From: Pontiella desulfatans
Lineage (GTDB): Bacteria > Verrucomicrobiota > Kiritimatiellia > Kiritimatiellales > Pontiellaceae
Direction: 5' to 3'
NCBI RefSeq assembly: GCF_900890425.1
Contig: NZ_CAAHFG010000003.1
Location: 124,001-188,000, forward strand
DNA length: 64,000 bases
A program made the translations under genes and the position numbers. The notes beneath the pieces are model-generated. The model made no database searches. It had not been told where the DNA came from and saw only the letters and a program-made list of their open reading frames with translations. Each line of letters opens with the position of its first letter. The first letter of the stretch is position 1. This document shows, in pieces, positions 27,211 to 64,000 of the stretch.

Positions 27211-28212
27211 CTAAACCTTTGCAACCACCACCGCGCGCTTGGGGGCGGGGTAGCCTTCAACGGTCTGGGCGGGATCGGATGGGTCGAGATAGTCGGGGAG
27301 CGATTCGAAGGTCATCCAGTCGGTGGCTCGTTGCTCTTCGAGCGAGGTGGTGTTGACATCGACCGTGCAAATGTCTTTGAGCCCGCAGCGCTTCATCCAG
27401 AGTTCGAGCGTTGGGACGGAAGGAATGAACCAGACGTTACGCATCTTGGCGTAGCGGCCATGCGGGATCAGCGAATAGCCCTCCGGGCCGTCCGCCACCA
27501 GCGTCTCGATCACGAGCTCGCCACCGGGCTTTAAAAAGGATTTCAGCTGCTCGATATGCTCAACCGGCGATTTGCGGTGATAGAGCACGCCCATCGAAAA
27601 GACGGTGTCGAACGCGCCGGGCGTTTCGGGCACATCCTCGATACCGAGCGGCAGCACCCAGGCCCGCGGATCGCCGAGGAAATGCTTCATCGCAAAAAAC
27701 TGGCAAATGAACAGGGGGGAGGGATCGACTCCAACGACGAGCTTGGCACCTTCGCCGGCCATGCGCCAGCAGTGGTAGCCGTTGCCGCAGCCGACATCCA
27801 GGATCGTCCGGCCTTCGAGAGGCTGAAGGTGCGGCCGGACGCGGTCCCACTTCCAGTCCGAGCGCCATTCGGTGTCGATATGGACACCGTGAACGTGGTA
27901 CGGCCCTTTGCGCCACGGGTGAAACTGCTTGAGCAGGTCTTCCAGGCCATCGATCGGTTTCCCGTCCACGCGCACTTCGTTGCGGAGTTCGATCGTAGGC
28001 GCAACGCCCTCGTCGCGTTGCGTGTGCGGGGAAAGCGACGAGGTCGTCGCTTCTACATCGGGAAGCTTGGCCAGGGCCTCCTCCCATTCGGGCAGCTTGC
28101 CGTGGCGCTCGTAGCGCAGGCCATGGGCAATACGCTCGGGCAGCAACCCGATCCACGGTTCGAGGTCGGTGCCTTTCAGCATTTTATAGAATGGGGTGTA
28201 GTCGATTTTCAT
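27211..28212 (-). CDS. cmoB: tRNA U34 carboxymethyltransferase
   Basis: Uses carboxy-S-adenosylmethionine to make 5-carboxymethoxyuridine at position 34 of tRNAs. The 333-residue protein from ATG 28212 has DTEWRSDWKWDR, the SAM-type motif ILDVGCGNGYHCWRM, GVDPS and GVLYHRKSP, all CmoB hallmarks. It sits next to cmoA, its substrate-making partner, on the same strand. Confidence 0.93.
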   Translation of the reverse strand: MKIDYTPFYKMLKGTDLEPWIGLLPERIAHGLRYERHGKLPEWEEALAKLPDVEATTSSLSPHTQRDEGVAPTIELRNEVRVDGKPIDGLEDLLKQFHPWRKGPYHVHGVHIDTEWRSDWKWDRVRPHLQPLEGRTILDVGCGNGYHCWRMAGEGAKLVVGVDPSPLFICQFFAMKHFLGDPRAWVLPLGIEDVPETPGAFDTVFSMGVLYHRKSPVEHIEQLKSFLKPGGELVIETLVADGPEGYSLIPHGRYAKMRNVWFIPSVPTLELWMKRCGLKDICTVDVNTTSLEEQRATDWMTFESLPDYLDPSDPAQTVEGYPAPKRAVVVAKV

Positions 28213-49534: not shown

Positions 49535-50722
49535 TCAATTCATTTCAATGTTGTCGAGCAGGGTTTGCACTTCATGTTCGAGTTTTTCGGTTAGTGCGTG
49601 AACCTGGTTTTTGCCTCCGTTGCCACGCTCGACCGGGATCGGTTCGCCAAAGGCGATGACCGCCCGCCGGGTGGCCCGGATGCCGGCCGTTGGTTTTTTC
49701 AAAACATCCTCTTCGAATTTATCGATCATCTCCGCCATGTCTTCGATGGTGGGCCGTTTCGAAACATAGGTTCCGGGATAGCTGAAGAGTTGGGTCACAA
49801 TGAACAGGTCGTCGAGATCCACCTCCGCCGCGAGGTGAGCGGCGCCGGACAGGGTGTCGTCTTCCGTGCACTGGATGGCTTGGCGTCGGCAGGCCTTCAC
49901 GCGTTCGGGCAGGGTGGCCGCGGGGTTCGTGATGCCCTGTTTTTTTTCGAGTCCCTGGAGAATGTATTCGGCCAGCGCCTGGATGCGCTCCGGCAGGGTG
50001 CCCGTCTGGGTTTCGCCGAGATATTCCTTTTCCTTGAGCCCCAGGATGGCTTCGGCGAATTGGTAGATGCGCTTGCGCAGGATCAGGTTCCGTTTGGGGC
50101 GCCACAACAGCTGTTCCTCCAGCCGATCCATCAGCGCCAGCAGCTCTTCCATGGGATTCTCGATATACTCGTAGCGAATGCCGCAGGGCACAAAGCAGAT
50201 TGGGCGGTCGGCTTGTTTGCAGGCATTGAGCGCGATTGCCGACGGGCCGTCCAGGAACGGGGTAACGCGTTTGTTGATATGGTAGATTTCACCTTCGGGA
50301 AAAATCACCAGCGGATAGGGTTTGTTGCGGAGGATGTTGACCGCTTCTTTGAACGCCCGGATATCGTTGCCCTCGCGGTTGACGCTGAAGCAGCCGTGGT
50401 GCCGCAGGACGAGGGTGCTGATCCAACTCGCCCGCATGAAAATCTGGGAGGCGGCCATGAAGTAGAACGGTACCTTCAATTGGTCGGCCACCCAGTAGAG
50501 TACGGAGGGATCGGCATGGCAGGAATGGTTCGGGGTAATCATGATCCCATGCCCTTTATCCATGCATTTCTGAAGGTGCTCCAAGCCCCGGGTTTCGATC
50601 TCCATCAGGTGGTGGTATTTCACGCGGAGGCGGCGGCGCATAAACCGCCAGAACCGGAAGCGCCCCCGGGTCAGTTGCGGCGACCACCAGCGTGGCGGTG
50701 TTTGATAGGGTTGGGCATCCAT
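49535..50722 (-). CDS. PlsC-family acyltransferase
   Basis: 395 residues. The glycerolipid acyltransferase motif NHSCHADP has His66 and Asp71, and FPEGE is the second conserved block. The C-terminal half, about 150 residues longer than typical PlsC, is helical and of unknown role. It lies directly upstream of the fusion gene and likely serves the same phospholipid remodelling pathway. Confidence 0.82.
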   Translation of the reverse strand: MDAQPYQTPPRWWSPQLTRGRFRFWRFMRRRLRVKYHHLMEIETRGLEHLQKCMDKGHGIMITPNHSCHADPSVLYWVADQLKVPFYFMAASQIFMRASWISTLVLRHHGCFSVNREGNDIRAFKEAVNILRNKPYPLVIFPEGEIYHINKRVTPFLDGPSAIALNACKQADRPICFVPCGIRYEYIENPMEELLALMDRLEEQLLWRPKRNLILRKRIYQFAEAILGLKEKEYLGETQTGTLPERIQALAEYILQGLEKKQGITNPAATLPERVKACRRQAIQCTEDDTLSGAAHLAAEVDLDDLFIVTQLFSYPGTYVSKRPTIEDMAEMIDKFEEDVLKKPTAGIRATRRAVIAFGEPIPVERGNGGKNQVHALTEKLEHEVQTLLDNIEMN

Positions 50723-50737
50723 TTCAATTCCTGTGTT

Positions 50738-50929
50738 TCATTCGATAACGATGATTGCGTTCTTGTTGCGCCTTTGCTGTTTGCGCCAACGCTCCCAATC
50801 CTCCTCCGTTTTCAGCTCGCGCTCCACCTCCTGCGTATATCCCAGATCCCGTGAGGCTTCATACGACTCCTCCGTCGTGACGCACCCCTGCACAACAATC
50901 AAGAGCAGCGCCATGAACAAAACCCGCAT
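50738..50929 (-). CDS. Small lipoprotein
   Basis: 63 residues from ATG 50929 with lipobox VVQGC (Cys16) and a charged C-terminus (WERWRKQQRRNKNAIIVIE). No family recognised. It lies 15 bases before the acyltransferase gene on the same strand. Confidence 0.5.
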   Translation of the reverse strand: MRVLFMALLLIVVQGCVTTEESYEASRDLGYTQEVERELKTEEDWERWRKQQRRNKNAIIVIE

Positions 50930-50959
50930 CTGGCTCCTCCTATCCTGGCTTGGAGTATC

Positions 50960-51012
50960 GACCGCGAAGACGCTAAGAAGCAAAGGGTTCTGTTCTTCGC
51001 GTCTTTGCGGTC
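50960..51012. repeat. AACCAC-type dispersed palindrome
   Basis: GACCGCGAAGACGC is mirrored by GCGTCTTTGCGGTC around a short middle. Same family as the elements at 28228 and 57221. It could act as a terminator downstream of the thioredoxin-like gene. Confidence 0.6.
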
Positions 51013-51024
51013 ATTAAAGATTCG

Positions 51025-51891
51025 TTAGTATTGGGAGATTTGCTGTTCGATCTCTTGGATCTCGGCCTGCATGGCCTCGTATAACTTCATGTTTTCGTCG
51101 TTCCGTTCCGGCTTGGAACGCATCCAGTCGGAGAGCTTTTTCCCGGTTTCTTCGAGTTTGGTTTCGAGTTCCTCGAACTTCTTTCGTTCTTCCTCGTCCA
51201 GTTGTGCAACGCGGAATTCGAGCATCTTTTCCTCCAGTTCGCCGACATCGCGTTTCAGCTGCCTTGCCTTGGCGCGTGCCTCGGCCTCTTCTTTTTCCGC
51301 CAGCTTCTGCTCGGCCTGTTTGGTTGCCAGCTCGTCGAGGAATCCGCGGTAGGTCTTGCGGTCTTCCCCGCTGAGCGCGGCGCAATATTTTTCGACCTCC
51401 GCCTGTCTGAAACGGAGGAGGTTCTTCAGTTCCGCCTGAAAGCTCTCCGGCGTTTTGTCCCGCCCGGACTTCAGGCGTCCGAGCTCCGTTTTTCCGTCCT
51501 GGTCGAGCACCACGAAGGTGGGGTAGCCGCGGATGCCATATTCGTCCTTCAATGCATTGTTGCGTTCGACATACTTTTCGGGCACCAGGCTTTTATCCTT
51601 CGGAAAATCAATCAGCACCATCATGAGGTTGTCTTTGGCATAGGTTGCCCATTCCGGCTTGGTGAAAACATTTTCCTCCATGACCTTGCACCAGCCGCAC
51701 CAGTCCGAGCCGGAAAAATCCAGCAGGATTGGCAACTGCTTTTCCTGCGCCACCTTTTTTGCGGCCTCGTAGTCCATCGTCCATTTGCCCGGCACCGCGC
51801 CATCGGCATCGAACTCGACGCCCGCCATGGTTCCGTTCACTGCACCCGACAGCAGCAAGGCTGCCCCGATCATCCATGTTGTGTTCTTCAT
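51025..51891 (-). CDS. Exported thioredoxin-fold protein with coiled-coil tail
   Basis: 288 residues from ATG 51891. A signal peptide (TTWMIGAALLLSGAVNGTMA) precedes a thioredoxin domain with the WCGWC active site at 64-68 and the cis-Pro loop GYPTFVVLDQDG. From about residue 170 the protein is an Arg/Glu/Lys-rich coiled coil. It is probably a periplasmic disulfide or thiol-redox protein. Its start overlaps the stop of the small lipoprotein gene before it (ATGA). Confidence 0.82.
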   Translation of the reverse strand: MKNTTWMIGAALLLSGAVNGTMAGVEFDADGAVPGKWTMDYEAAKKVAQEKQLPILLDFSGSDWCGWCKVMEENVFTKPEWATYAKDNLMMVLIDFPKDKSLVPEKYVERNNALKDEYGIRGYPTFVVLDQDGKTELGRLKSGRDKTPESFQAELKNLLRFRQAEVEKYCAALSGEDRKTYRGFLDELATKQAEQKLAEKEEAEARAKARQLKRDVGELEEKMLEFRVAQLDEEERKKFEELETKLEETGKKLSDWMRSKPERNDENMKLYEAMQAEIQEIEQQISQY

Positions 51892-52250
51892 GCAATATCT
51901 CCTGTTAGGTTTATGATTCCCGTAATGCACAGGGTGTGCCATCGGCATGTCGCTTCAAAAACCTTATGGATTCCAACAATTCTTGTCCCTTCTGTTTCCC
52001 TGTTGGACATGGAATGCCTATCCGGTAGCCATTCGCTGTCCAAGTCGGCATAGGGCACCGTCCGGCAGGACGACAGGAGGAGGGCGGCCAGCAAGCCAGC
52101 GATGTGGAGGGTCGCCGGCCTCGCCGGCCGGGCAACGTTTCGTTGCCTGCCGTGGAGTGGTGCGGGGAGGTCGGCGTTGGCGCCGACCGGGCTGAGAGGT
52201 CTCTGCCCCTCCAGCACATCCGATACAGCAACTGTGCGTTGTGTTTTCAT
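51888..52250 (-). CDS. Lipoprotein with REP-like palindromes inside its N-terminus
   Basis: 120 residues. A strong GGAGG ribosome site precedes ATG 52250, and the stop overlaps the next start (ATGA), so it is probably translated. The lipobox LLLSSC is at Cys62, very late: about 28 residues rich in Arg, Pro and Ala (from hairpin-forming DNA at 52106-52188) sit between the start and the hydrophobic segment. The signal may still work or may have been spoiled by the insertion. No family recognised for the mature part. Confidence 0.5.
   Translation of the reverse strand: MKTQRTVAVSDVLEGQRPLSPVGANADLPAPLHGRQRNVARPARPATLHIAGLLAALLLSSCRTVPYADLDSEWLPDRHSMSNRETEGTRIVGIHKVFEATCRWHTLCITGIINLTGDIA
52106..52188. 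repeat. REP-like cluster D: three hairpins inside a gene
   Basis: Two GGAG-headed palindromes (at 52106 and 52166) flank a third hairpin GGCAACG-TTT-CGTTGCC. The last one is GGTCGGCG-TTGG-CGCCGACC. All three lie within the reading frame of the lipoprotein at 51888-52250. Confidence 0.65.
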
Positions 52251-52282
52251 TCTCCACCTCCATCTCTGGATAAATGCGAAGC

Positions 52283-52795
52283 CTAGCGTTTTCGGAACAG
52301 GCCTGGATCATCATCGAACAGCTCGATGTTGCCACTGTTTTCAATAAACACTTTGCGCAGTTCCTCCGTGGTTTTGAGGTTGTTGGAAACCACGTCTTCA
52401 TTGAGCAACCGAACATCCAATACGCCGTTCGTGATGGCATAGCGGGCAACATGGAACAGATGGTTTTTATCGGCCTCCTCCACATCGCCTTCGCCGGTTC
52501 CGATGGCTTCGAGCTGCACGCAGGCCACGCCGCCCAATTTGATCGGGTAGCCGCGGTAATAGATGCTGTTTTGGCCCATGGGGTGGTGGATCAAATATTC
52601 GGTGCCCGAGTACCTCAGCACCATCATCCGGTCGTCCTCATCCTCGTGGACGCCTTTCCTCGGCACGGGCTCCCAAAGCCCGATGAGTGCCTGATCGATC
52701 GCGATCGTGTGCTCCTTCACCAGCGGCTCCTCGTATTCGCAGCCCGCGATTAAAACGACTGCCGCGGCCATTGTTGTCATGACTAGCGCTTTCAT
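52283..52795 (-). CDS. Lipoprotein of unknown function
   Basis: 170 residues with a lipoprotein signal and lipobox LIAGC (Cys19). The mature part is mixed alpha/beta with an acidic middle. It is one of several consecutive lipoprotein genes on the minus strand. No family recognised. Confidence 0.65.
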   Translation of the reverse strand: MKALVMTTMAAAVVLIAGCEYEEPLVKEHTIAIDQALIGLWEPVPRKGVHEDEDDRMMVLRYSGTEYLIHHPMGQNSIYYRGYPIKLGGVACVQLEAIGTGEGDVEEADKNHLFHVARYAITNGVLDVRLLNEDVVSNNLKTTEELRKVFIENSGNIELFDDDPGLFRKR

Positions 52796-52817
52796 CCTCT
52801 TCCTCCATTCTTGAACT

Positions 52818-53204
52818 TCATGGTGAATATATGACCGTGATGGTATCGCTGGCGGTTCCCTTTCCTTCGTCCGAGGCCACCGTTACGGTGATGGGGTTTT
52901 CGCCGGGCTCCAGGTTGACGTCCGCGAACCAGGTTCCATGACCGTCGTTATAGAGGACATAGCCTGGAACCGTGCGGTCGGTCAGGGCGTTGTAGGCGAA
53001 GACCTCCCACGTGGTGTTGTCGCATCTGCCTCCCAGCCGGACGGCGGTGAAGTCCGTCTGGTAGACCTCTTCCTCGGTCGGGTTCTTGATGGTTACCCAC
53101 GGGGCGTCGTCATCATTCCCTTCGCGATCTTCATTGCATCCGGTGCAAAGGAGCACCGCGGAAAGGAGGGCCGTCATGGCAATCCTTGAAAACGCAATTT
53201 TCAT
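52818..53204 (-). CDS. Lipoprotein with an Ig-like beta-sandwich
   Basis: 128 residues; lipobox LCTGC (Cys23) after a clear signal peptide, then an acidic linker (NEDREGNDDDAP) and an Ig-like domain ending GKGTASDTITVIYSP, as in many extracellular bacterial domains. It starts two bases after the stop of the gene at 53207. Confidence 0.65.
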   Translation of the reverse strand: MKIAFSRIAMTALLSAVLLCTGCNEDREGNDDDAPWVTIKNPTEEEVYQTDFTAVRLGGRCDNTTWEVFAYNALTDRTVPGYVLYNDGHGTWFADVNLEPGENPITVTVASDEGKGTASDTITVIYSP

Positions 53205-53206
53205 CG

Positions 53207-53893
53207 TCAGTCTCCGTTGCGCTGCGCCACCCGCTTCAGGATAACGGCATTATCCAGATCCCATAATCCATTGGGATTGCTGCGGAAATAGGTGTCCTGC
53301 TCTTGCTTGGTGCCTTCCAGGGCATAGTCGCAGGAGCCATAGCCGCAGTTGGTCTTTCGCGCATTTATCTTGTTGGCCTTTGCATCGGCCTTGAGCTTGT
53401 CGGAATCGACATTGAACAGGATCGCAGTGTCGGGACTCTCTTTGTCCGTTGCCGGAACAACCACGCGGAGGATGGTGTAAAGTTGGTCTTTTCCATCTTC
53501 GTTGCATTGGATGCTCAGGAAGAGTTGGTCGTCGAGTTCGGAGAGCACCACCTCGAACGATTCCGTCGCGTAGTCGCCTTTCTTATTGTCCCATTCCATG
53601 GCCGCAACAACGAGCGTGTTGGATTCGGTGCAGTGCACGTGGTAGACACCTTTGTCGCAAAGCATCCAATCGCTTTCAACGGCAAGAAAGCCATTGGTGA
53701 GAACCACCTTTTCGCCGGGGTAGTATGCGGACTTTAGCGAGCTGCATCCGGCCACCGCGATGACCAGGGCCAGTAGGCAGGTTGTTTGGAGGGGCGGGTT
53801 CTTCCCCGCCCGCATTTGCCCTAGCCACTGCCGGAGCCGGAGGAACCCGTCGCTCCATCGAAATGCCAGGATCGCCGTTGTTTTCATTGCCAT
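53207..53893 (-). CDS. Lipoprotein, REP-like hairpin within the leader region
   Basis: 228 residues if ATG 53893 is used, which overlaps the stop of the ferritin-like gene (TGATG) and so may be coupled to it. A second ATG at 53815 gives a typical 24-residue lipoprotein signal ending LVIAVAGC, so that may be the true start. Between the two ATGs lies a GGAG-headed palindrome (53788-53811). The mature part has no recognised family. Confidence 0.55.
   Translation of the reverse strand: MAMKTTAILAFRWSDGFLRLRQWLGQMRAGKNPPLQTTCLLALVIAVAGCSSLKSAYYPGEKVVLTNGFLAVESDWMLCDKGVYHVHCTESNTLVVAAMEWDNKKGDYATESFEVVLSELDDQLFLSIQCNEDGKDQLYTILRVVVPATDKESPDTAILFNVDSDKLKADAKANKINARKTNCGYGSCDYALEGTKQEQDTYFRSNPNGLWDLDNAVILKRVAQRNGD
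53788..53811. repeat. REP-like element E
   Basis: GGAG followed by GGGCGGG-TTCTT-CCCCGCCC on the plus strand, in the N-terminal coding region of a lipoprotein on the opposite strand. Confidence 0.6.
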
Positions 53894-54348
53894 CACCAAT
53901 CGTGCATATGTCCGAAATCCCGCGCGAGGTTGCGCATTTCCTTCTCGTTCGTTTCGAGCAGGTTGGTGAAAACCTCCTTGATGCGCTTGGAATGGGCGCG
54001 CTTGACGACCTCGCGGTAGAGCTCCGACAGGCGTTCGTCGAGCCGCAGCACCTCGCGCAGCACGGCCTCCGCGTCCATCTCGTGCGTCAGCTCGGCCGGG
54101 GCGAGATAATCCTCCACCCCGATGTTGGGCGGGAACTGCAGCCAGGTGTCGGTAACATCGTGCGACACCTGTTTCTCATAGACTTCCAGCGCCTCTTCGT
54201 GTCGCTGTTCGGCTTCGCCGAGATAGTCGAGCAGGATCTTCACCCGCACCTTGTCGGTTTCGGCGCTCAGCGTGCCGTAGTATTCAGCCAGCCGGGTGTG
54301 GAAATCCCGCGCTTGGTCGATCACATCCATGATTCTTTCCTGGCTCAT
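53893..54348 (-). CDS. Small helical, possibly ferritin-like protein
   Basis: 151 residues, nearly all helical, with DYLGEAEQRHEEALEVYEKQ resembling an E-x-x-H metal motif and a helical hairpin as in rubrerythrin/ferritin-like proteins, ending DFGHMHDW. Iron binding is inferred. No signal peptide. It heads the lipoprotein run downstream. Confidence 0.5.
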   Translation of the reverse strand: MSQERIMDVIDQARDFHTRLAEYYGTLSAETDKVRVKILLDYLGEAEQRHEEALEVYEKQVSHDVTDTWLQFPPNIGVEDYLAPAELTHEMDAEAVLREVLRLDERLSELYREVVKRAHSKRIKEVFTNLLETNEKEMRNLARDFGHMHDW

Positions 54349-54489
54349 TTCATACCTCCATTCCCTTCAACCCCTAAAGAGGGGTATACGCCGATCTTTG
54401 TTGTTTGCAAGAGAAAACATGAGTGCGCTAACAGGCATTTCCATGCCGAATTGCGGGCTGTTCTTGAGCCAGGGAAATCATGACGGTCG

Positions 54490-55200
54490 TTAAAAATGGC
54501 GCATTTCGCAGGGCTGTGTTTCCGACCGCTTCAGGTAAAGCATGTCGCCGGGGTTTTCCGCGGGGAATCCTTCCGGCCGTTGGACGTCGTCTTTCCCGTG
54601 GGCGATCCGCATCTTGAGCCTGCCGCCCTTCTGGAACTTAACGATGCACTTCATTATGGTTGCGGGGCCGGAGCCGCCAACGGCCACGATGTCCAGCGAG
54701 GCGGGGGTGGTGGAGGGGTCATACGTATACGTCATGCTCCCGCCGCGCTCCAGGGCCATTCTGCGGGTGGACTCCGTATAGCCGGTAATCATGTCGGCCT
54801 GTCCGTTCTCGTCGAAAACAAAGGTAATGAAGCCATAGTTTTCGGAATCGAAATGCCGCCACACGCCGATGATTTTCCTGGGATCGTCTAGCGCCAATTC
54901 CGGCGGTTTGGCATCGTCCGGTTCAATGACTCCGTTCCCGTCCACATCGAACGCGGCAAAGTTGCGTTCCGCCGTGGAAGGATTGAACCGCTTCCCTTGC
55001 TCCTGCATGTAGGCTTCGCCGAACGAAAAATATTCATCCTTCGTAACCTTTCCGTCGGAGTTGGTGTCCATGGCGCGAAACAGCTTTTCACCCATTGTCC
55101 GCACGGGTTCTGCCATGTCTTTCCCGGTTGCGTTCAGCAATATGCCAGGCAGGCAAAGCATCGTAATAATTCCAGCCGATCTCGTGATGTTTCTTTTCAT
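54490..55200 (-). CDS. Exported EF-hand protein
   Basis: 236 residues from ATG 55200; longer frames run through unlikely low-complexity sequence. A signal peptide (SAGIITMLCLPGILLNATG) precedes two EF-hand calcium loops, DTNSDGKVTKDE and DVDGNGVIEPDD, then a beta-rich C-terminal domain. Probably periplasmic or outer-surface, calcium-dependent. Confidence 0.7.
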   Translation of the reverse strand: MKRNITRSAGIITMLCLPGILLNATGKDMAEPVRTMGEKLFRAMDTNSDGKVTKDEYFSFGEAYMQEQGKRFNPSTAERNFAAFDVDGNGVIEPDDAKPPELALDDPRKIIGVWRHFDSENYGFITFVFDENGQADMITGYTESTRRMALERGGSMTYTYDPSTTPASLDIVAVGGSGPATIMKCIVKFQKGGRLKMRIAHGKDDVQRPEGFPAENPGDMLYLKRSETQPCEMRHF

Positions 55201-55608
55201 TGCGCACCTCCCGGTTGCATCTTGCCCAACCGCATCGGGTGTGCCATGTCGTTGCGGGGTGTGCGGAGGGCTTTGGCCGCAAAGGGTTATGGCATTGGAG
55301 GTGTGCGTGGTATTTCCGGTGGATGAACGTTTTGTGCATGCGAGACCTGCCTTCCGTGTATGGGGCATTGCCCAAGAATGCAGGGGGGGCGCTGGCTTCT
55401 GTGGCTGGTTCGATCAACCGCCATGTCACCCGAAATGCGGGCACATATTTACCTTCGAATCCCGGTTCCTTGCAATAAATCCACTATTCCTCCCAACCAA
55501 TCATCCAGAACCGTAAGATTACGTAGATTGTGGTCGAACTGGGATTGTGCTTGATTATAATCTTCGCCTGTCTAGGATTTCAAATATCACGGAAAAGGAG
55601 ATGTGTAG
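55201..55608. other. Gap before the beta-barrel gene
   Basis: 408 bases without a convincing gene. A perfect TATAAT at 55556-55561 could be the minus-10 of the beta-barrel promoter, but no minus-35 stands out at proper spacing. AAAAGGAGA is the ribosome site before ATG 55609. The rest, including the start-side of the EF-hand gene, shows nothing clear. Confidence 0.4.
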
Positions 55609-56208
55609 ATGAGAGTAAGATTGGTGGTTGGGTTGTTGATGGTTGGTTGTGCTGGTTTGGCTCACGCAGGGGTCACTCCCTATGCAAGCCTCGACGGTGG
55701 TGCGGTTTGGTTAAGCGATACATACGAAGTCAGGACGGATACCGGTTGGATTTTTGAAGGCGCGGTCGGAATGGGTATCGATGGAGCGTTTCCCCCCATT
55801 CGCGTCGAGTTGGCCTCTGGATACCAGAAAAGTAATTTAGCGCAAAACGGGAACGGGGTTTCCGGTGGAAAGATGGGGATCGGCAATGTTATGGCGAACC
55901 TCTATCTGGACATCATGGACTTCGATTCCGGCTATGTTCGCGAGGGCTCCCATTTTACGCCGTTTGTACCCTACGTTTTTGCCGGTATCGGCGCGGCCTA
56001 TTCCCATGCGGAATGGGACGGCGAAACCGCAGAGGACACGAAGGTTGCCGGCAACCTCGGCGCGGGATGCGGTTGGTACATCACCAGCCACTTGATGATG
56101 GATGTGAAATATAAATATTTCTTCAGCCGCGATATGGAGATCGAAAACCAGTACGAGGTCGACCTGACCTCCCACCAGATTCTGGCGGGTCTTCGCTACA
56201 TGTTCTAA
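55609..56208 (+). CDS. Outer-membrane beta-barrel protein
   Basis: 199 residues with signal peptide RVRLVVGLLMVGCAGLAHA and alternating beta strands; the end GLRYMF with terminal Phe is the typical outer-membrane beta-signal. It resembles the OmpA/OmpW-like eight-strand barrels. A strong AAGGAGA ribosome site precedes the ATG. A terminator lies just after the stop. Confidence 0.75.
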   Translation: MRVRLVVGLLMVGCAGLAHAGVTPYASLDGGAVWLSDTYEVRTDTGWIFEGAVGMGIDGAFPPIRVELASGYQKSNLAQNGNGVSGGKMGIGNVMANLYLDIMDFDSGYVREGSHFTPFVPYVFAGIGAAYSHAEWDGETAEDTKVAGNLGAGCGWYITSHLMMDVKYKYFFSRDMEIENQYEVDLTSHQILAGLRYMF

Positions 56209-56225
56209 GGCGAATCAGTGTTCGT

Positions 56226-57212
56226 TCATAATGCCGGCCATTGGCCGGCATTTTTTATGAGCTGCTCCAGGCACTGGAACGCGGCAGGGGTGTCGTTGAG
56301 GCAGGGGATCATGCGGAACGATTCGCCACCGGCTTCCAGGAAGGTTTCCTGGCCGCGCAGCTCGATCTCCTCAAGCGTTTCAAGGCAGTCGCAAAAGAAG
56401 GCCGGGCAAATGACGGCCAATTGCTTGATTCCGCGCGTCGGCAGCTCCTGCAGCACCGCGTCGGTGTAGGGTTCCATCCACTTGGCCCGGCCCAGCCGCG
56501 ACTGGAACGAGACGGAATAACGCTCCGGGGGAATGCCCGCCGCCTCGACGACGGCCCTGGTGGTCTCGAAACATTGGTGGCGGTAGCAGGTGGCATGGGC
56601 CGGCGACTCCGTTGTGCAGCAATTCGCCGAAGCCAGGCAATGGCCGCCGGTTGGGTCGGTCTTCTTCAGGTGCCGTTCCGGCAGGCCGTGGTAGCTGAAC
56701 AAAATATGCTCGTCCACCTCCTTCAGGGCGTCGGCCAGCGGTTGGATGTAGGTGGGTTCCCGATAGAACGGAGGGGCCACGCGCAGGGTCACCCGGTTTC
56801 CCAGCACCTTCTTAACCCCCGCCACGCAAGAGCCGACGGTGGCCATGGCATACTGCGGGAACAGCGGCAACAGGCAGATCTCATCCACCCCTTGCGCCAG
56901 CAGGTTCTCGGTCGCCTGCTTGAACGAGGGGGTGCCGTAGGCCATGCCCACTTCAGCGCCAAGCCCGTCGGCAAGGCGGGTGCAGTAGTGGACCAGCGGC
57001 GAACCGTTTTCGGTCCAGATGGCTTGGTAGGCCTCGGCCGACTGCGCCGGGCGCTTGGGCAGGATGGCCCAATGCACCAGGGCATAGCGAAGGGGGAGGG
57101 GCAGATCGATCACAAACGGATCCATCAGGAACTCCTCCAGGTAGATCCGCAGCGCCTCTTCCGTCGGCGCATCCGGCGACCCCGTGTTCATCAATAAAAT
57201 ACCGCGTTTCAT
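56226..57212 (-). CDS. hemH: Ferrochelatase
   Basis: Inserts Fe2+ into protoporphyrin IX, the last step of protoheme synthesis. The 328-residue protein has the SYHGLPERH motif (metal-binding His175), LLPLFPQYA and CPAFFCDCLETLEEI. Several extra cysteines (CLASANCCTTESPAHATC) are present; whether they bind a cluster is unknown. It lies upstream of the hemG gene's end, same strand. Confidence 0.95.
   Translation of the reverse strand: MKRGILLMNTGSPDAPTEEALRIYLEEFLMDPFVIDLPLPLRYALVHWAILPKRPAQSAEAYQAIWTENGSPLVHYCTRLADGLGAEVGMAYGTPSFKQATENLLAQGVDEICLLPLFPQYAMATVGSCVAGVKKVLGNRVTLRVAPPFYREPTYIQPLADALKEVDEHILFSYHGLPERHLKKTDPTGGHCLASANCCTTESPAHATCYRHQCFETTRAVVEAAGIPPERYSVSFQSRLGRAKWMEPYTDAVLQELPTRGIKQLAVICPAFFCDCLETLEEIELRGQETFLEAGGESFRMIPCLNDTPAAFQCLEQLIKNAGQWPAL
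56230..56256 (+). terminator. Terminator of the beta-barrel gene, inside the 3' end of hemH
   Basis: A perfect 10-bp stem (AATGCCGGCC, loop ATT, GGCCGGCATT) is followed by TTTT on the plus strand. The same bases on the minus strand encode the last residues of HemH (NAGQWPAL), so one sequence serves both purposes. Confidence 0.85.
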
Positions 57213-57220
57213 ATTTTTTA

Positions 57221-57283
57221 AACACTAAGGCACGAAGAGCACTAAGGTTCGTGTCGCTTTGTGTCCTTTGCGTCTTCGTGGTT
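57221..57283. repeat. AACCAC-type dispersed palindrome overlapping the hemG end
   Basis: AACACTAAGGCACGAAGA is mirrored near the other end by CGTCTTCGTGGTT. It lies between hemG and hemH and encodes the last residues of HemG (NHEDAKDTKRHEP), which look like a repeat-derived tail. Confidence 0.6.
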
Positions 57284-58606
57284 AATTATTTTGTCTGCAA
57301 CGTTGATGCCGGAGAGGATGGAGTTGGCAACGGAAATGCCGTCGCGGTAGTGGCCGGCGAAATGGATGCCCGGATATGCGCCTTCGATCTGCTTCATGTG
57401 GTTGAGATATTTTTCATAGCCAACAACATATTGCGGGATCGCCTTCGGCCAGACGCTCAGGTGCTTGTAGTCCGGTTCGCCGTCAAGGCCGAGCAGATCC
57501 TTCAGATCCTTCAGGGCGTTGGCGAGTAGCATCTCCTCATCCATCAACGCACGGTCGGGCGACTGCGATCCGCCGATGAAGACCGTCAGCAAGGCCATGC
57601 CGCCCGGTGCGCGCTCGGCGAAGATCGACGATGGGAACAGGGCGCCCAGCGAGAAGCGGTTTTCAATCTTCGGGATCAGCATGCCGAATCCGTTGAGCGC
57701 GTGCATGAACTGGTTGATGCCGAATCCGAGCGACAGGCTGGCGACCGGCGGATAATAAACCGCGGAAAGCGGTGCCAGGTCGAATGGAACGTTCAGTTCG
57801 GTTTGCGCATGGGTGGGGATGGCAAGCACCACATCCGTGAATTCCTCGCAGTTGACCAGCCACTTGCCCTCATCCAGCGGTTGAATCCCGGCCACGGGTG
57901 TGTTCAACCGGATGGCTTCGCCCAGCTTGGCGGCGAGCTGCCTGGGCAGCACCTCCATGCCGTCGTCGAAGGTGAACATGCGCGCATCCTTCGTGGCCAC
58001 CTCCTCCCGCTGCTTGCGCTCCTTTGCCCCATTGATCGCCCCCTTGATGAGCGACCCATACTTTTGTTCCAGCGCATAGAGCTTGGGAAAGGCGTGGCAG
58101 GTGGAAAGCTTGGCGGGATCGCCGGCATAGACGCCGCTAACGAACGGGTTGATGGCGTAGTCGAGAAACTCCTGCCCAAGGCGCCGCACCACAAAGTCGG
58201 CCAGGCTTTCCTGTTCGTTCGATTTCGATTTGATGAACGGCTCGCGCAGCAGCCGCAGTTTTGCCCGGGTGGAAAAGGCATCCGAGAGAATGAAGGCTTG
58301 CGGCGAGGTTGGGAGGGCAATGGGCTTGCCGTCGCGAACGATGAAACGGTTGTTGGCTTCCGGCTTGGATGGCAACTTGTTGCCTTCAAGCCCCAGCCGT
58401 GCAATCAGTTTGCCGAGATGGGGGTGCGTATCAAGAATGGAGTTGGGGCCGCATTCCACCAGGAAGCCGTCTTCCCGCACGGTCTGGATGCAGCCGCCCA
58501 CGCGGTCGGAAGCCTCGAACACCGTGCAGTCGATGCCCTTTTCCTTCAGTTCGAACGCGGCCGTCAGCCCCGTGATGCCCGCACCAATAATCGCTACCTT
58601 TTGCAT
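57242..58606 (-). CDS. hemG: Protoporphyrinogen oxidase, HemG/HemY type
   Basis: Oxidises proto- or coproporphyrinogen to the porphyrin in heme synthesis, FAD-dependent. The 454-residue protein opens with the dinucleotide-binding motif VAIIGAGITGLTAAFELKEKG and FEASDRVGGCI, and continues with FLVECGPNSIL. Its C-terminus ends in a short charged tail derived from an intergenic repeat. hemH follows directly downstream. Confidence 0.9.
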   Translation of the reverse strand: MQKVAIIGAGITGLTAAFELKEKGIDCTVFEASDRVGGCIQTVREDGFLVECGPNSILDTHPHLGKLIARLGLEGNKLPSKPEANNRFIVRDGKPIALPTSPQAFILSDAFSTRAKLRLLREPFIKSKSNEQESLADFVVRRLGQEFLDYAINPFVSGVYAGDPAKLSTCHAFPKLYALEQKYGSLIKGAINGAKERKQREEVATKDARMFTFDDGMEVLPRQLAAKLGEAIRLNTPVAGIQPLDEGKWLVNCEEFTDVVLAIPTHAQTELNVPFDLAPLSAVYYPPVASLSLGFGINQFMHALNGFGMLIPKIENRFSLGALFPSSIFAERAPGGMALLTVFIGGSQSPDRALMDEEMLLANALKDLKDLLGLDGEPDYKHLSVWPKAIPQYVVGYEKYLNHMKQIEGAYPGIHFAGHYRDGISVANSILSGINVADKIINHEDAKDTKRHEP

Positions 58607-60897: not shown

Positions 60898-60972
60898 ACT
60901 AAATTATCCTGTCTCCCAAACTCGTGGGATCATCGCCTGTTCGTGACGGTGTTACTTTGTCAACAGTCTGAA

Positions 60973-60994
60973 GCAAGCGGGACGCTTGCTCTAC
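60973..60994 (-). repeat. REP-like element G
   Basis: Minus strand: GTAG, then AGCAAGCG-TCC-CGCTTGCT. Its GTAG overlaps the TAG stop of the degraded methyltransferase frame. Confidence 0.7.
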
Positions 60995-61338
60995 ACTGAA
61001 GCATACCGCCCGCCGTCCATGCGCAAGGCCTGCACCTGGTCGCGCAGGGCTTTCTGCCAGGGTTGTTTATGTGGGGCAGGCTTTCCTGCCTACCCTTGCG
61101 CGGATGGGCAGGCTGGAAAGCCTGCCCCACGTACGTCCAGCTCGCCCTTTGCGGGACGGCTTCCAGGCATTGGAATTCGGGGCGGAGCCAGCGGATGGTG
61201 CCTTGCGCCTCGGCGGCGGCGTGGGCGGCGTTGAGGGCGACGAGGCGCTCGAGGATATCGTCGTGGATTTGCATCAGGACGGAAACGAGACCCTGTTCGT
61301 GGATGGTCTTTCGCGCCCTGATGTGGGGGTCTGGTGCG
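60991..61338 (-). pseudogene. Remnant of the C-terminus of a MmeI-like DNA methyltransferase
   Basis: The minus strand codes [18 protein letters not shown], then directly [30 protein letters not shown], and, in another frame, [15 protein letters not shown] and a stop. This order fits the end of type IIL/MmeI-like class I DNA methyltransferases, where the same blocks are separated by a longer segment; an internal deletion is apparent. A palindromic element (61071-61130) lies within it and breaks the frame. The catalytic part is gone. Family assignment is from memory. Confidence 0.6.
61071..61130. repeat. REP-like inverted pair H inside the methyltransferase remnant
   Basis: GTGGGGCAGGCTTTCC on the plus strand and the same word read on the minus strand from 61130 form an inverted pair around a short spacer. 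It sits in the middle of the methyltransferase remnant. Confidence 0.7.
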
Positions 61339-62883: not shown

Positions 62884-64000
62884 TCATCGTTTGGTATCCC
62901 GCTCCAACTCTTCGGTAATAAGTTGCATCTGTTTTTTGAGTTCTTCTTTGGAGGGCAGGTATAGCTGATACTTGGAGGCGAAAATATTGGCATCTTTCGG
63001 CAGGGTCAGCTCGACCAACGCATCGTTCTTTCGGTGGCAAAGGACGATGCCAATGGTGGGTTGCTCGTCCTCGGTTTTCACATGGCGGTCGAAATGGTTG
63101 ACATACATTTGCATCTGGCCGAGATCCTTGTGGGTGAGTTTGTCCCGTTTGAGATCCAGCAGGACATAGCAGCGCAGCAGGCGGTTGTAGAAAACCAGGT
63201 CAACATAGAAATGGTCGTTGTCGAAGGTGAAGCGCTTCTGACGCGCCTCGAAGAGGAAGCCCTTGCCCAGCTCCAGAAGGAACTGCTCCAGCTTGTCGAT
63301 GATGGCTTCTTCCAACTCATCCTCGGAATAGGATGCCCGTTGCTCCAGTTCCAGGAATTCCAGCACCAGCGGATCCTTGATCAGGTCGGCGGCTTTTTCC
63401 AACACCAAGCCCTCCTTGGAAAGCGTGCGGATCTCCTCCTTATTGCGGCTTAGCGCCAACCGTTCAAAAAGGGAACTCCCGATCTGCCGCTCCAGTTCAC
63501 GCACGCTCCAGCCGTTGGCCGCCGCCTCGATCTCATAGAATCGGCGCTCCTCCGGACGCTCGATCGTCAGGAGGCTGACATAGTGCGACCAGCTCAGTTG
63601 AAACTGGTTGGCCAACAGCTCCAAGATTCCACCAGCAGATTCCGCAGACAGTGTCTGCCGAATATCTGATTTCCGAGACACCGCCTCGGAATTTGGCAAA
63701 AGAGAAATCCGAGACAGTGTCTCGGAAATTCGTTCGTCGGCGACAAACCCCTGATATACCGTGAAAAAACGGCGCATTAGCTCCAAGGAATCCACCGAAA
63801 AACCACGCCCCAAGCCAGTCGTTAGTTCCCTCGACAGCTTTTTCAGCACAGCCTCGCCATACTCCGCCCGATCCGCACCGTTCTGCTGATACTCCACAAT
63901 ATACCAGCCAAACAGCCAGTTGCGCACCACCAGCTCGATGTTGACCGAGCGAGCCGCGCGTTGCTGCATCGTCGTATGGGTTTCGCGGCACAGCGCAACC
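62884..64000 (-). CDS. YhcG-family (DUF1016) nuclease, 5' end outside the window
   Basis: The frame is open to the window edge. An ATG at 63969 gives 361 residues, but the residues before it (ALCRETHTT) also fit the family's N-terminus, so the true start is probably left out. Domains: DUF1016 N-terminal (WLFGWYIVEYQQNGADRAEYG) and a C-terminal PD-(D/E)XK nuclease with FYVDLVFYNRLLRCYVLLDL. Between them a linker is encoded by DNA palindromes at 63644-63726. Such nucleases are linked with restriction or mobile-element contexts. Confidence 0.8.
   Translation of the reverse strand, partial: VALCRETHTTMQQRAARSVNIELVVRNWLFGWYIVEYQQNGADRAEYGEAVLKKLSRELTTGLGRGFSVDSLELMRRFFTVYQGFVADERISETLSRISLLPNSEAVSRKSDIRQTLSAESAGGILELLANQFQLSWSHYVSLLTIERPEERRFYEIEAAANGWSVRELERQIGSSLFERLALSRNKEEIRTLSKEGLVLEKAADLIKDPLVLEFLELEQRASYSEDELEEAIIDKLEQFLLELGKGFLFEARQKRFTFDNDHFYVDLVFYNRLLRCYVLLDLKRDKLTHKDLGQMQMYVNHFDRHVKTEDEQPTIGIVLCHRKNDALVELTLPKDANIFASKYQLYLPSKEELKKQMQLITEELERDTKR
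63644..63726. repeat. Three palindromes within the YhcG-like coding region
   Basis: GCAGACAGTGTCTGC (63644-63658), TTCCGAG-ACACCGC-CTCGGAA (63671-63691) and TCCGAGACAGTGTCTCGGA (63708-63726) are each inverted repeats. They encode the linker ISETLSRISLLPNSEAVSRK and beyond between the N- and C-terminal domains. Confidence 0.75.

Follow-up and report, generated by a model that had tools for sequence, protein, structure and literature searches.

In the window analysed here, a 64,000-nucleotide stretch (C3:124001-188000) of the 8.66-Mb genome of Pontiella desulfatans, two open reading frames in a minus-strand run of small lipoprotein genes hold palindromic DNA that follows the start codon and precedes the hydrophobic core of the signal peptide, and the question is whether this DNA is translated, where it comes from, and whether it does anything for the proteins. 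Genes were called with a simple custom script. The run comprises gene B (53207..53887, 226 aa from ATG 53887; other possible starts, ATG 53893 and ATG 53815), a 128-aa lipoprotein gene (52818..53204; MKIAFSRIAMTALLSAVLLCTGC) and a 170-aa one (52283..52795; MKALVMTTMAAAVVLIAGC), neither of which carries an element, then the lipoprotein-like ORF A (51888..52250, 120 aa) and, downstream of it, a thioredoxin-like gene (51025..51891; Pfam Thioredoxin_7), which also occurs in relatives and is a synteny marker. A sequence-only reading of this stretch had reported both reading frames, the lipobox cysteine Cys62 of ORF A and palindromic DNA ahead of the hydrophobic core, and all of these were confirmed. 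When window positions 49535-58606 were compared with L145/L146, the heme-synthesis, thioredoxin-like and acyltransferase genes were syntenic with P. sulfatireligans and the small lipoprotein genes between them differed.

REP-like DNA is probably inserted in frame in gene B

The element of gene B (53787..53857, minus strand, 71 nt; TGGAGCGACGGGTTCCTCC...GGGCGGGGAAGAACCCGCCCCTCCA) consists of feet and hairpin and translates as WSDGFLRLRQWLGQMRAGKNPPLQ. Read from ATG 53887, the protein would start with MKTTAILAFR, run through 24 element-encoded residues and continue with TTCLLALVIAVAGC (MKTTAILAFR[REP]TTCLLALVIAVAGCSS...). The perfect hairpin of the element, with 7-bp arms, occupies 53792..53811, downstream of ATG 53815, and REP DNA would therefore be translated from either start of gene B. 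A degenerate half lies at about 53833-53857, between ATG 53893 and ATG 53815, and this degenerate end also occurs in an independent copy at C1:147410. The sequence-only reading had placed a hairpin between the two ATGs and credited the second one with a normal signal peptide; the degenerate half does lie there, but the perfect hairpin does not, and a start at 53815 would itself give a REP-encoded n-region, MRAGKNPPLQ. The element is followed by no further ATG before the hydrophobic core begins, and the codon usage of gene B is host-like (0.212 per codon). Since one of its halves is degenerate, the element, as single-stranded DNA, folds only weakly better than shuffles (z = -1.5).

The comparison with orthologues that had been proposed gave the register. 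The P. sulfatireligans orthologue (45% identity) begins MKTKLHNIFILLALAAMLAGC and lacks the palindrome and the element; in the alignment, made at the protein level, the insertion is in frame and the MKT start of the orthologue lines up with ATG 53887, two codons inside ATG 53893, so that 53887 rather than 53893 is the start in register. The ATGAAAAC start common to both is carried by only 22 of 670 signal-peptide-like genes in this genome, and gene B, like its orthologue, encodes a lipoprotein signal peptide with n-region, h-region and a lipobox with its Cys (LALVIAVAGC in gene B, LALAAMLAGC in the orthologue). Weighing against insertion with translation from the upstream start, a wider scan found no further relatives of gene B, leaving one clear orthologue, and ATG 53887 is not preceded by a strong Shine-Dalgarno sequence; ribosomes probably reach this start through coupling with the gene before it.

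The alternative raised earlier is that the start has shifted, so that element B would lie mostly in the 5' untranslated region and translation would begin at ATG 53815, inside the element. This ATG has AGGG upstream and was preferred by our script, and published N-terminal REPs often reflect misannotated starts (PMC3733652), but the orthologue start aligned to ATG 53887 speaks against it, and the hairpin would still be translated, as RAGKNPPLQ, so that REP DNA stays in protein B either way. We regard a shifted start as possible but doubtful, and in-frame insertion of REP-like DNA into the N terminus of gene B as well supported by the sequence comparison.

The elements belong to a dispersed REP-like family

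The coding-strand ends of the elements of ORF A and gene B are alike, with TGGAG at the start and CTCCA at the end. Pairs of such feet were counted in a 2.46-Mb genome sample taken in tiles; a strict definition (two perfect hairpins) gave few elements, and a relaxed version was checked against control motifs. TGGAGG pairs hairpinned at both ends occurred 11 times, whereas 15 of the 16 other hexamers gave none and the remaining one, the near-identical CGGAGG, gave 1; pairs with at least one hairpin occurred 21 times, compared with 0-4 for permuted or altered hexamers. Genome-wide, the F half-site pattern had 47 matches versus 1 for a reversed control, and the half-site was present in 7 of 29 relatives tested. 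Three subtypes were distinguished: F (TGGAGGGnCnnGTTCCACC) is commonly 67 bp long, D is 48 bp and G is 50 bp. Element A consists of two G units in tandem, and element B is of the F type, matching the pattern with one mismatch. Thus, the genome contains, beyond chance, a family of dispersed REP-like elements whose feet are TGGAGG…CCTCCA. Hairpins can arise from codon constraint and GC content, and 88 of them were found in the window, but feet and loops are common to dozens of dispersed copies, which refutes chance at the family level and makes it extremely improbable that palindromes A and B are accidents of GC-rich coding sequence. Single hairpins within ordinary coding sequence at C1:4355, C3:300570 and C3:416654 were set aside as chance.

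REPs are defined by a 5' tetranucleotide GT[AG]G that sits at the foot of the hairpin or no more than 2 nt from it (PMC3686654, PMC6006769). The foot here is GGAG/TGGAGG instead, and the family is called REP-like for that reason. In other respects it resembles REPs: a short hairpin follows directly after the foot, often in head-to-head pairs, with many 67-bp and 48-bp double-foot elements; its many copies are dispersed and mostly extragenic (about 21 of about 33 sampled elements are intergenic by hand count); and a probably cognate RAYT (REP-associated tyrosine transposase) gene is flanked by the repeats. Like Rickettsia palindromic elements (RPEs), the elements also occur as in-frame insertions in unrelated protein genes.

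Other palindromes are found in the same window. Hairpins with canonical GTAG feet at 28000-28052 and 60972-60990 place GTAG-type REPs beside the GGAG family; the GGGCAGGCTGGAAAGCCTGCCC hairpin at 61106-61127 is one of several dispersed copies of another palindrome family; and at 63639-63726 three related hairpins (GAGACAGTGTCTC-like) in close succession possibly represent a further one.

A RAYT gene is the probable mover of the family

At C2:338201-340249, a cobyric acid synthase is fused in frame to a RAYT through a REP-like hairpin. The RAYT assignment was made with NF047646 (85.9 bits, cut-off 80). The transposase part has F elements at its start (the join) and at its 3' end, and a further two in frame within it; the relation is taken as cognate because of this position, and the family is probably moved by this RAYT. 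The arrangement is like that of tnpAREP genes of subclass 2.4, which hold REPs in frame (PMC6006769), in that two hairpins lie between the HuH motif and the presumed Y-motif region and double-foot elements occur; it differs in the GGAG foot and in the fusion to cobyric acid synthase.

ORF A may be a decayed lipoprotein gene

The element of ORF A (52105..52213, minus strand; TGGAGGGG...CCCTCCA) comprises 109 nt in two tandem G-type units and would encode about 36 residues, rather than the roughly 28 residues from three hairpins counted in the sequence-only reading. Its end unit matches C1:1083049 and C4:909213, and its single-stranded DNA fold (-32.8 kcal/mol) is better than that of shuffles (z = -3.9). 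The reading frame itself is questionable. The codon score past Cys62 is -0.083 per codon, below real genes, and over the 71 codons past the element it is -0.013 per codon, compared with 0.296 +/- 0.086 in real windows, only 0.2% of which score as low. Profile searches matched no protein family, and 39 relatives yielded no credible orthologue, only weak matches, many with stops. It is thus somewhat probable that ORF A is a pseudogene or a non-coding leader of the thioredoxin-like gene, in which case element A would be plainly intergenic. Against this stand the strong Shine-Dalgarno sequence, the MKT start, the lipobox, 120 open codons, a stop that overlaps the start of the next gene (ATGA) and a local coding-like stretch around the lipobox. 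ORF A may be a decayed lipoprotein gene, and because of this possibility it is weak evidence for in-frame insertion.

Elements recur in signal peptides of other genes

The second gene in which insertion could be aligned is a TPR gene at C4:250195, with the element between n- and h-region (MRVKGRKVESRRS[PRPFVRRPGRNRALQ]LFLLLVAATANA). In a DNA alignment, neither P. sulfatireligans L207 nor Pontiellaceae B1224 L208 has the REP DNA, whereas both share the end of the upstream gene and the ATGAGG start; the insertion is in frame with a net gain of 12 aa versus L207, and the element is without its left end. In-frame N-terminal insertion in this gene is well supported by the alignment. A signal-peptide gene at C3:301975-302805 has an element in the same place, which its tandem paralogue (MKTTIIAATLLLASIASAN) lacks, and an FGE-sulfatase-domain protein gene has four half-sites in its n-region (C4:655581-655692). 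The conserved TPR start and the lack of any ATG after the element at C3:302805 further argue against starts downstream of the elements, although some 5' elements do have a start after them, as in a LarE-like gene at C2:338151, which counts against the preferred explanation. The proposed in-frame insertion of REP-like DNA into N termini is well supported by the alignments of gene B and the TPR gene and recurs in two more signal-peptide genes; the evidence from ORF A is weak.

Internal in-frame copies were found at C1:147410, C2:156851 and C2:335577 and in the RAYT gene, whereas C2:856437, first read as in frame in an RHS-like ORF, was not counted since the frame was too short. In the nuclease-like gene C1:145413-148589, the REP-like element is accompanied by a second in-frame insertion near residues 377-414, which resembles another palindromic repeat (GGGGTCGGTC...GACTGACCCC); the alignments of relatives break at the insertion site, as judged from hit coordinates only. 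A D-type element at C1:458502-458549 lies directly upstream of a signal-peptide core, with an ambiguous start (several ATGs before, TTG after).

Besides the intergenic copies, the tiled sample, which does not cover C4:655581, contained 4 elements in the n-regions of signal peptides (A, B and two more) and 6 elsewhere in genes, the rest being ambiguous. By called starts, n-regions total 16.9 kb (generous bound, 40 kb) of 2.13 Mb coding DNA, or 0.8-1.9%, yet hold 4 of 10 intragenic elements (binomial P = 8e-7 to 2e-5) or, without A, 3 of 9 (P = 4e-5 to 5e-4); these P values are descriptive, since elements were sorted by hand after the cases had been seen. Elements are at least as dense in n-regions as in intergenic DNA and roughly 35-80 times as dense as in other coding DNA. 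The element peptides carry charges of +3 to +5 in signal peptides versus 0 to -5 in internal copies (five versus five, p = 0.008), as expected if only n-region-compatible frames survive. Over 670 genes, no general link of CCTCCA with signal peptides was found in excess of permuted hexamers, indicating that elements in signal peptides are rare events. Nor do the two neighbours in the window call for a special cause, as had been suggested, since about 33 sampled elements would be expected to give about 0.7 neighbours within 1.6 kb.

Discussion

We consider it likely that a REP-like hairpin family with TGGAGG/CCTCCA feet spread through this genome, moved by the RAYT, and that copies landing between n- and h-region with the frame kept have survived and are translated there. 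The element would then add 15-38 mostly positively charged residues to the signal peptide of genes such as B. The insertions would be selfish and near-neutral, surviving where an extra positive peptide is harmless, and such tolerated insertion explains the data for which exaptation had earlier been invoked. Exaptation would mean that selection had favoured the elements for a role in regulating translation or export, for instance through the resemblance of TGGAGG/CCTCCA to Shine-Dalgarno and anti-Shine-Dalgarno sequences. The feet do match GGAGG/CCTCC, and the remaining CCTCCA foot of the TPR gene could pair with its own TGGAGG, but in predicted folds the Shine-Dalgarno sequence was not consistently masked (its probability of being unpaired was 0.34 with the element and 0.18 in the orthologue that lacks it), and we hold this reading to be highly unlikely.

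Intragenic REPs and in-frame palindromes in general are already known. Intragenic REPs of the GTAG/CGTC super-families are documented and richest in Opitutus terrae, of the same PVC superphylum, and in that main survey many N-terminal cases were set aside as likely misannotated starts (PMC3733652). They share with the present family small size, palindromy, a mostly intergenic distribution and some in-frame copies, many of them N-terminal; here, in contrast, the foot is GGAG and orthologues support the upstream start. RPEs are likewise palindromic mobile DNA in frame in unrelated genes (summarised in PMC10969869), but they are about 150 bp long and belong to an obligate intracellular lineage, whereas the elements here are mostly 48-112 nt, GC-rich and RAYT-associated, in a host that is probably a free-living marine anaerobe. 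What appears new is, first, the GGAG foot and, second, that elements concentrate in the n-regions of signal peptides, with orthologues backing the upstream start; neither was found in the literature searched, whose silence does not prove absence.

It is unlikely, in our view, that the GGAG-footed class repeatedly supplies signal peptides with n-regions, with insertion favoured through Arg-rich peptides or through Shine-Dalgarno-like feet that tune translation; if it did, mobile hairpins would be remaking the secretion signals of this lineage. That real in-frame insertions into signal peptides occur is supported by orthologues in which the start is conserved and the element absent, and the GGAG foot together with its linked RAYT makes a testable new candidate REP/RAYT pair. 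The insertions into signal peptides suggest that mobile DNA is tolerated in the n-region of a secretion signal to about the same degree as in intergenic DNA.
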